Virus record (IMG/VR): IMGVR_UViG_3300036398_001596
Location: 1-23,401 of that record
Source: a virus
DNA length: 23,401 bases
Reading direction: 5' to 3' (one strand)
Below, piece by piece: positions 7,493 through 15,731 of this stretch. Each line of letters starts with the position of its first letter. The first letter of the stretch is position 1. Below the pieces are notes generated by a model that did no database searches, was not told the origin of the DNA, and saw nothing but the letters and a program-made list of their open reading frames with translations. A program made the translations under genes and the position numbers.

Positions 7493-7912
7493 ATGAACTT
7501 TGATGATGAAATATTCGGTAGTAAAAAATTCTCTGATTTATTGAAAGATATTTACGATAATCAGAAGAAAAAAGACCGTCAAATAAACCTTTTAATAGCA
7601 GATTTGAAACCTATGTTGAATAACATAAGTGATGCTGCTATATTAGTTCCAGCAATCAAAGATTTTATAGAAGTGTCAGTTAAGAATGATGAGCATTTAG
7701 TTAAATTGGCAGCGGTTATACAGCGTGCTATGAGTAATAAGGGTGAAGAAACCTCTTCGTTCTTGACTGATGAAGAAAAAGAAGCCTTATTAAAAGGTAT
7801 TCAGGAAATTCAAGAAGAACAAGAGGATAATAACATTGGCATTGGATCCACAGAAAATATTGTTGAACGGGACGGAATACGAGATAGTTTCCGCGGAAGT
7901 AGTAAGAGTTGA
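7493..7912 (+). CDS. small helical protein of unknown function in tail block
   Basis: A 139-residue, mostly helical acidic protein. Residues 20-80 form amphipathic helices (INLLIADLKPMLNN, VKNDEHLVKLAAVIQRAM), residues 90-115 an E/Q-rich helix, then a short polar tail. It has no membrane segment. Its last 77 bases overlap the hub gene in another frame, a large overlap that suggests tight coupling. No strong ribosome binding site; the CATATTTATAG element lies directly before the ATG. A chaperone or minor structural role for the neighbouring hub is a guess from position. Confidence 0.7.
   Translation: MNFDDEIFGSKKFSDLLKDIYDNQKKKDRQINLLIADLKPMLNNISDAAILVPAIKDFIEVSVKNDEHLVKLAAVIQRAMSNKGEETSSFLTDEEKEALLKGIQEIQEEQEDNNIGIGSTENIVERDGIRDSFRGSSKS
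7823..7826 (+). promoter_or_regulatory. ribosome binding site deciding the TTG start of the hub gene
   Basis: GAGG within AAGAGGATAA, 9 bases before TTG 7836. It lies inside the preceding gene and supports a TTG start that gives [15 protein letters not shown] as the N-terminus; no ATG gives an equally complete OB-like domain. Confidence 0.6.
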
Positions 7913-14900: not shown

Positions 14901-15731
14901 TGCACAAGTAACGATATTGGTGGTGCTGCAACATCTGTATTTACCGGACAAGGTATTTATACAATAGGTGGTTCATTTCCTGATACCGGAGCTGAAGCTG
15001 GAATATGGGATCCAGTCGGAGATCAATTAAAAGATTTTATGAGAGGATCTGGTCAAGCTGAACTTTCTGGAGCAGAAATAATATCCGGAGGAGGAATGAC
15101 AACTGCTTGGAGAGGTACATACACGATGGGTCCAACAAGAGCTTGTGGATCAAAACATAGTGCAGGTTTGGCAAATGATTATCGATTTAAAATAAGCAAA
15201 TTGTTTCCAAAAGCAGCAACTGGAGCCGGAACAGGTGAAAATCCTAATCTTCTGAAAAGTTCAACCTTTATGAAAATAATGAACTCTTTTGCAAGTAGTA
15301 AAGGGTTAGGATGGGGTGGGAGCTGGGGCAATCAAACTGCTGCTCTTGCAACTCAACCTTGGGGTATTGATTTGACTGGCATTAAAGATGCAAAAGGTAA
15401 AGTGATTGCTACAGATTCAAGTGAAGTACATCACTTGGAAGTGAAAGGTGCAGATACTAAAAGATTTTTTGCACCATATAGAAATTCTCTAAAAACAAAA
15501 TATAATAAAGATTATACAACTCTTCAAAATCCAAAAGATATAGTTGAAATTTATGAATATGGTTTAGGTCCAGAGGCAAATTATCTTGCATGGACACAAG
15601 GATTTAGTCAGTTTCGTAGTGGTTGTAGAAGACCAAAAACAAACCAAAATTGGAATGGTAAATATGGTTCATCAGATAAAAGTGTAGGAACTGGAACAGA
15701 TAAGACTAATTCAAAAAATTGTAACATATGA
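11976..15731 (+). CDS. large tail protein with collagen-like tracts, hydrolase-like region and C-terminal M15 peptidase
   Basis: A 1251-residue multidomain protein, probably the wall-digesting part of the tail. Residues about 56-87 and 186-210 are collagen-like G-rich tracts. Residues about 235-415 look like an alpha/beta fold (LIFVVGGV, ILVIYSAGVAGG with Ser327, QIHISGPPLG, VYYWCVG), possibly an alpha/beta hydrolase or a degenerate one. About 500-900 is a beta-rich region I do not recognise (FNSKIGYLFEQGNELHM, AIFVVDYH). The last 200 residues carry the M15/VanY peptidase motifs SKHSAGLAND (His1061, Asp1068) and EVHHLE (Glu1150, His1153), the expected zinc ligands and base, so peptidoglycan peptide cleavage is likely. 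No signal peptide, as for a virion enzyme. Confidence 0.82.
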   Translation: MLVYDVIQEVPANTVNSGSRLVLVEYTPTDEEVANILYDTSAYDNSDRTSPRASTGGTSGVTGTTGGTGTTGGTGTTGGTGATGGTGNNNEIPETKNVTVNGVTYTVYTQGTETGSDDSIIIDGVTYSANDYIQRKEEEARNQTLLNDGSADGSTGEKYDKNNPNPQENKKVEVVEPCIEKGDTSGSGATGGAGSTGGAGSTGGAGGGTDDTTPIAPRVVKKGKYGTFKSSTKNKNAPLIFVVGGVSLPPNSSPGTSPGDNPQNPDKKEGYMWTGFGTAKTGYNDLQDFNIYNCMTSQTSKSGWSECEKILNEQKIKPSKYILVIYSAGVAGGHSGVLTVKTADKWDQIHISGPPLGDFGVDEKKFNSYLKTIEKAGKDKVYYWCVGTGNKEGAARTDWKKKIIDSLPASNVNTQVDNHYQQIEDVSQGIKKLVSVEQGTKAEVIVTEPVKTQPICDDLTKLDAKKKANEGPQGGAENVTEQRETSDGQQKEADPKAPNKNVEPVYSGKLNHRFYQYPIENNTKPATLQEMLDPKKPWYKRYWAWRSSDSPGYGLPENESLLSAPDGTPLVTSLIPYWPPPENDGIPDTSKQLFKPKPTVSGEWKNLSSAYKKITSVFDIPIILNSPDVGLFNSKIGYLFEQGNELHMTIPSSQIIHNRGKGVGIGIAKNTNIENKPDANWGAWSRWDGYFTKHCLDINGFNTHPDIENVNKYHENLIKAGKLANYPGNKQWKPDEMLAELSQNSVIKPSKLWFNHLNEEELLKDKADCAIFVVDYHINKNGSLTEAGKKLVSHILNKLKWKMATISTVSYHNMTDNIFRVDVLPYMDSSGNLITIGGQINSNKPDPSMAQNATISVKKQSLYDIAKINGDSWVNGAIFITNMKKLPKSDFREGENLESKLYESEILTSYKERIGKTNEQLNSILYDIVKDILAVEPDPPPQPDPVVTGNQSKDAADGNLPFTLRGGNAYKKCQPCTSNDIGGAATSVFTGQGIYTIGGSFPDTGAEAGIWDPVGDQLKDFMRGSGQAELSGAEIISGGGMTTAWRGTYTMGPTRACGSKHSAGLANDYRFKISKLFPKAATGAGTGENPNLLKSSTFMKIMNSFASSKGLGWGGSWGNQTAALATQPWGIDLTGIKDAKGKVIATDSSEVHHLEVKGADTKRFFAPYRNSLKTKYNKDYTTLQNPKDIVEIYEYGLGPEANYLAWTQGFSQFRSGCRRPKTNQNWNGKYGSSDKSVGTGTDKTNSKNCNI
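12141..12236 (+). repeat. collagen-like GXT repeat tract, first tract of the M15 gene
   Basis: Imperfect lead-in (12141-12167) then three 18-bp units of ACTGGTGGAACTGGTACT type (12168-12221) and a partial one, encoding Gly-X-Thr triplets. The last 27 bases are identical to the tandem repeat of the hub gene at 9312-9455, so the two tracts share ancestry or have recombined. Confidence 0.93.
12531..12598 (+). repeat. glycine-rich repeat tract, second tract of the M15 gene
   Basis: Two perfect copies of GGTGCTGGATCTACTGGA (12549-12566, 12567-12584) with flanking partial units, encoding GAGSTG-type triplets. Its unit length (18 bp) matches the other tracts but the codons differ. Confidence 0.9.

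Follow-up and report, generated by a model that had tools for sequence, protein, structure and literature searches.

A divergent M15 peptidase encoded beside an enzyme-free hub as the putative wall-cutting part of a T4-type contractile phage tail

The DNA analysed here, a 23.4-kb virus fragment (IMG/VR record IMGVR_UViG_3300036398_001596, positions 1 to 23,401; hereafter 'the window'), carries what we believe, with reasonable though not strong confidence, to be a T4-type contractile-tail hub cassette with a separately encoded wall cutter. The hub gene would never have been detectably enzyme-bearing, and the wall-cutting part would be encoded in the adjacent cargo slot, from the hub to the gp25-like gene, either as a single separate protein or as several. 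The cargo here would be a 1251-aa protein that combines an N-terminal tag, flexible Gly-x-x (collagen-like) linkers, an esterase-like domain, a CHAP-like domain lacking its cysteine and a C-terminal M15 domain. The tag would dock the protein on the hub or baseplate, and the linkers would space the domains. During contraction the M15 domain may cut peptidoglycan peptides near the puncture, perhaps aided by the esterase-fold domain, and it has probably replaced the function of the disabled CHAP-like peptidase. The evidence is computational and comprises the domain makeup of the protein, the position and variability of the slot, the cysteine losses and the conserved M15 motif; from it we infer presence of the protein in the virion, docking by the tag and activity on the host wall.

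In addition to the hub region, the window encodes a head-maturation protease and gp25-like and gp6-like baseplate genes. Overlapping IMG/VR contigs (L004/L007, L006/L009; related loci are given L numbers) match it at >99.8% identity. A thymidylate synthase gene is located near the structural genes (694-1377, PHROG E=2.8e-70), and another is found upstream of the hub of phage Mel-JY01. The features of the cassette are as follows:

7493..7912, + strand: 139-aa gene directly 5′ of the hub, kept in relatives (99% identical in L005, 42-87% in other relatives)
7836-10118: hub open reading frame, 760 aa, TTG start
7836..9107, + strand: hub core, aa 1-424, without lysozyme (homologous in all relatives, 60% to Mel-JY01; weak OB-fold matches)
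9315..9458, + strand: hub Gly-x-x (collagen-like) tract, aa 494-541, an 18-bp minisatellite
9480..9992, + strand: hub LRR-type repeat domain, aa 549-719
10137..11957, + strand: 606-aa protein carrying the second LRR-type repeat domain, aa 374-561
11976-15731: M15 protein, 1251-aa open reading frame
11976..12137, + strand: N-terminal tag of the M15 protein, aa 1-54, candidate docking signal (100% identical in L005, 82% in L056; leave-one-group-out profile test)
12144..12242, + strand: M15 protein, Gly-x-x tract 1, aa 57-89
12537..12599, + strand: M15 protein, Gly-x-x tract 2, aa 188-208
12642..13289, + strand: probable alpha/beta-hydrolase-fold (esterase-like) domain, aa 223-438 (fold matches E=8e-4; alignment of seven sequences)
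13542..14774, + strand: CHAP-like domain without catalytic Cys (Asp688), aa 523-933
15081..15662, + strand: M15 peptidase domain, aa 1036-1229 (SKHSAGLAND at 15150-15179, EVHH at 15423-15434)
15800..16231, + strand: 143-aa gene closing the cargo slot, kept in most nearer relatives
16234..16737, + strand: gp25-like baseplate wedge protein (PHROG 261, E=2.7e-9)
16730..18619, + strand: gp6-like baseplate wedge protein (PHROG 219, E=5e-21)

No lysozyme was found in the hub by Pfam. Among the module profiles applied to it (GH19, SLT, M15, CHAP-like, ABH, NAGPA and LRR), LRR gave the sole match; together with the tract at aa 494-541, this agrees with the first-pass annotation, which had described a lysozyme-free hub bearing collagen and LRR parts. 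The T4-type lysozyme family PF00959 was not found in three related records (160-190 kb) and from two near-identical contigs (39-41 kb). The TTG start of the hub is located inside the upstream gene, with a 77-bp overlap in a different frame (7836-7912), and the corresponding junction in Mel-JY01 overlaps too.

The designation of the hub as gp5-like stands in terms of position and, weakly, of fold. The gene is syntenic with the gp25-like and gp6-like genes, and its N-terminus, with predicted beta strands, weakly matches gp5/VgrG OB-fold entries, at E values of about 3e-3 to 0.1, and other OB folds as well; synteny and these fold matches are the reasons for its assignment as a hub. In sequence and profile, on the other hand, no similarity to gp5 was observed. 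Comparison of the hub profile with T4-type gp5 gave an hhalign probability of 0.3% and the PDB profile search gave no match, so that a sequence relationship between the hub and T4 gp5 was not found; a full-length fold search also returned no significant PDB match. As had been proposed, the task of digesting the wall appears to fall to a polypeptide of its own next to the lysozyme-free hub, but a transfer of this task out of the hub is without support. No recognisable enzyme was found among the hubs scanned in this family, and therefore nothing shows that a lysozyme was lost here. Judging from these sequences, the wall enzyme was probably never inside the hub of this phage. The idea that a T4-type hub lost its lysozyme, with digestion moving to the M15 protein and a mixed collagen-like helix joining both, would account for the lysozyme-free hub and for the in-phase Gly-x-x tracts on the two proteins. 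Enzyme-free hubs throughout the scanned family and the undetectable T4 gp5 ancestry speak against it, and so do the tracts themselves, so that we regard it as quite unlikely.

The hub tract consists of 16 Gly-x-x triplets encoded by a perfect 18-bp repeat of 7.9 copies, and the M15 protein carries 11 triplets at aa 57-89 and 7 triplets at aa 188-208. The Gly-x-x repeats are uninterrupted in both proteins; proline is absent, and a triple helix is only putative. Prolyl-4-hydroxylase-type genes (PF13640) occur in Mel-JY01 upstream of the hub (L002:1671-2270) and in the L013 genome (contig G001, 143145-143459). None was found in the window or the near-identical contigs, where the tracts are proline-free. 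The 18-bp repeat has one unit fewer in a 99.9% identical strain. L018 and L060 combine an LRR hub and a homologous slot protein with a hub that has no Gly-x-x tract; the hubs of L013, L014 and L024 also have none. In L056 the M15 protein contains broken tracts only, and the L013 slot protein shows VTPP repeats at the place matching the tract. With the tract absent or broken in relatives and its copy number unstable, the suggested assembly through shared collagen tracts was rejected as the default link between hub and peptidase. The tracts fit the role of a spacer better than that of a specific bridge. The GH19 slot protein of L091 (14134-15177) carries its own long GGA (Gly-x-x) repeat, and collagen-like spacers therefore seem to arise repeatedly in the slot.

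The 1251-aa protein had been described as bearing collagen tracts and an M15 peptidase with intact zinc motifs. Both parts were confirmed; two further domains, the alpha/beta-hydrolase and the CHAP-like domain, had been overlooked. Pfam Peptidase_M15_4 (PF13539) scores below its curated cut-off (18.3-22.4 bits versus 25; E=3.4e-3 for the whole protein and 4.7e-4 for the C-terminal piece), and membership is argued from the motif and a profile comparison for this reason. The SxHxxGxAxD motif, with a zinc His and Asp, is present as SKHSAGLAND (aa 1059-1068), and the ExxH motif, with the catalytic Glu and a zinc His, as EVHH (aa 1150-1153). H1061, D1068, E1150 and H1153 do not vary when the window protein is aligned with three homologues that are 35-37% identical to it. 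Against five M15-type domains of relatives, profile comparison gave E=1.6e-6 and a probability of 90%, with the motifs aligned. On sequence grounds, the M15 assignment appears sound, for a domain that is divergent and retains its motif intact. By tblastn the 1251-aa protein had no match among 50,697 phage records, the CHAP-like and M15 domains gave nothing useful in profile searches of the PDB, and the predicted model of the protein is mostly of low confidence.

The best-predicted part of this model is aa 223-438. Its fold matches are alpha/beta hydrolases, with CE1/feruloyl esterases first (E=8e-4). The nucleophile Ser327 and a late His419 are invariant in seven sequences, while the acid residue is uncertain; the model thus points to a probable alpha/beta-hydrolase domain. 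The region aa 523-933 belongs to a domain family of 23 slot proteins with a W-C-G motif followed by H-V-E and G-G-N motifs, as in CHAP/NlpC-P60 peptidases. In a single profile comparison with CHAP domains, the His/Asn half was aligned weakly (E=1.6e-4, probability 51%). TIGR02594 was the only curated family matched by more than one member (3/16, weakly, best E=0.028). We therefore have moderate confidence in the CHAP-like assignment.

In the window protein the catalytic Cys of the WC motif is replaced by Asp688. The Cys is kept in 15 of the 23 CHAP-like proteins, and the slots of these 15 contain no M15 or GH19 motif, barring a regular-expression hit that is the CHAP motif itself. It is lost in the remaining 8, by Asp in the window, L005 and L056, by Ser in L018, L060 and L091, and by Ala in L083 and L090. 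Beside each of the 8 Cys-less proteins, or within it, the slot encodes a further likely hydrolase. This is M15 for the window, L005 and L056, and M15 together with GH19 for L091; L083 and the companion protein of L090 show an M15-type motif pair, and L018 and L060 have a CHAP protein together with NAGPA-like and lysozyme-like regions (the lysozyme-like region was read by eye). The 15-versus-8 count is inflated by near-copies. The tree needs at least two Cys losses; this is a small number of events, but they all go the same way. Since the Cys is intact where M15 and GH19 are missing and lost beside another hydrolase, M15 is probably the successor of a dead CHAP-like peptidase. The claim of a peptidase rather than a glycosidase activity has to be revised in this respect: the likely predecessor is a CHAP-like peptidase domain that is still present without its Cys, and the window M15 probably succeeded this domain in the same protein and not a hub glycosidase.

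Relatives were found by hub-core searches, so figures for the wider family refer to the matches listed; gene calls in them are mechanical. Among the matches listed, 128 loci carry a hub, and in 109 of these the gp25/gp6-like genes lie downstream of it, with one to five genes in between. The closest isolate among them is Mel-JY01, which infects Microcystis elabens; its hub ends soon past the core, and the next gene encodes a GH19 enzyme most like solved endolysins. GH19 enzymes occupy the slot in L002 and L014-L017, GH19 and M15 are found in one slot protein in L019-L023, and M15 plus GH19 in the slots of L046 and L091. GH19 and CHAP occur in L024, lysozyme-like plus VanY proteins in L025 and L026, and CHAP together with a phosphodiester-glycosidase-like protein in L018 and L060. 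In other relatives a CHAP-like domain is the sole recognised slot enzyme (the 15 proteins with Cys). At this position relatives encode wall-cutting enzymes of other kinds, and the enzyme therefore looks exchangeable. Judged by these domain matches, phages of the nearer clade as a rule assign wall digestion to a separate polypeptide. This holds for the nearer clade only, because most slot proteins of the distant immuto-like clade are without a recognised enzyme, among the matches listed. In 32 further hub records, PF13539 matched only in the genome bin of L074, on contigs of that bin which may or may not include the hub contig. The immuto genome (NC_055915.1) has a VanY/M15 match at 158999-159361, within an open frame of 941 aa that is distant from the hub, and the immuto slot is without a recognised enzyme.

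The fixed hub-gp25 position, in which relatives hold GH19, CHAP and lysozyme-like wall enzymes, also bears on the nature of the 1251-aa protein. Together with the intact M15 motif, which points to peptidoglycan, it speaks against a tail fibre or depolymerase-like adsorption protein whose three domains (M15, esterase-fold, CHAP-like) would bind or attack surface material outside the puncturing device. Collagen-like spacers are common in tail fibres. The large multi-domain architecture with such spacers, the PHROG tail-fibre matches to the Gly-x-x tract, the esterase-like fold and the strong divergence between close relatives would all suit a protein of this kind, which we nevertheless consider rather unlikely. 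M15 peptidases are also common endolysins, and a role in lysis or virion assembly instead of entry might be assumed. This is highly improbable for a protein of 1251 aa that has no obvious export signal and is encoded within a baseplate operon. A likelier endolysin of this phage, on sequence criteria, is a small SLT transglycosylase: a 168-aa open reading frame with an SLT match and an N-terminus that, by eye, resembles a signal peptide is located just upstream of window position 1 on a 99.9% identical contig (L006:1516-2022), and small SLT reading frames are also present in Mel-JY01 and the L013 genome. The same contig carries a 218-aa reading frame (L006:553-1209) with a DGGGST motif like that of the NAGPA (phosphodiester glycosidase) modules in the slot proteins of L018, L060, L025 and L090.

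Between the window and L005, the gp25-like, gp6-like and 139-aa upstream proteins are about 99% identical and the hub core 95%. The M15 proteins are 100% identical over aa 1-54 and 86-89% over aa 211-510; identity is 45% over aa 511-935, 33% over aa 936-1035 and 37% over aa 1036-1230. The constant start and changed end suggest docking by the N-terminus, and the tag at aa 1-54 is a better docking candidate than the collagen tracts. In a leave-one-group-out test (several hundred decoys, known slot proteins set aside), the N-terminal profile of the other groups ranked the window tag first (E=0.008), and the L013 tag likewise (E=2e-4). The L014/L019/L024 group was not recovered and the signal of the tag is weak outside the close relatives, which is why a common tag stays a candidate. 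The 606-aa LRR-repeat protein (10137-11957), 36-46% identical to its L005 counterpart, has diverged as much as the C-terminus of the M15 protein in strains whose flanks are near-identical, and possibly faces the host surface. More tentatively, a whole T4-type clade might combine a fixed enzyme-free hub with plug-in hydrolases that share an N-terminal docking tag; recombination would swap the enzymes, and the disabled CHAP-like domain would be kept as a wall-binding or structural module once M15 or GH19 has joined.

In well-studied phage hubs the wall enzyme is built in. T4 gp5 is both the baseplate hub subunit and the tail lysozyme, with the lysozyme inside the hub. The window cassette resembles it in its baseplate operon near gp6 and, as we infer, in a spike-type role with digestion at the puncture point. 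It differs in that its enzyme is encoded by a separate gene and its hub has no profile similarity to T4-type gp5. In the gp5-like hub of Salmonella phage Det7, a CHAP-like sequence (read by eye) is located where T4 has the lysozyme; that enzyme is inserted in the hub, whereas the window enzyme is separate. Mel-JY01 (PP395634) is the most similar in arrangement, with a hub core 60% and a gp6 74% identical and a separate hydrolase directly after the hub, but its hydrolase is GH19 and its hub has no Gly-x-x tract or LRR extension. The hub gp15 of cyanophage A-1(L) contains tail-tip peptidase and glycosidase-type domains, and in isolation its peptidase domain lyses host cells (PMC10966104); there every enzyme is part of the hub polypeptide, in contrast to those on the separate neighbour in the window. 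The Deep-Blue Gp189 and Vp4 Gp110 hubs carry an NlpC/P60 cysteine-peptidase tail lysin that is bacteriolytic when purified (PMC11406892). There the NlpC/P60 domain is fused to the hub, whereas in the window the CHAP-like domain has no Cys and an M15 domain is present. In the part of the open literature that was searched, no description of an exchangeable hub-adjacent slot was found, and neither virion data for immuto nor literature on Mel-JY01 yielded anything usable.

Close relatives thus hold clearly different hydrolases in one slot beside an enzyme-free hub, in contrast to the built-in enzymes of well-studied hubs, and the catalytic residue of one enzyme is repeatedly lost where another is present. 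The slot may offer a natural series for the question of how the chemistry of a puncturing device is adjusted to the host wall, and a short candidate docking tag that is directly testable.
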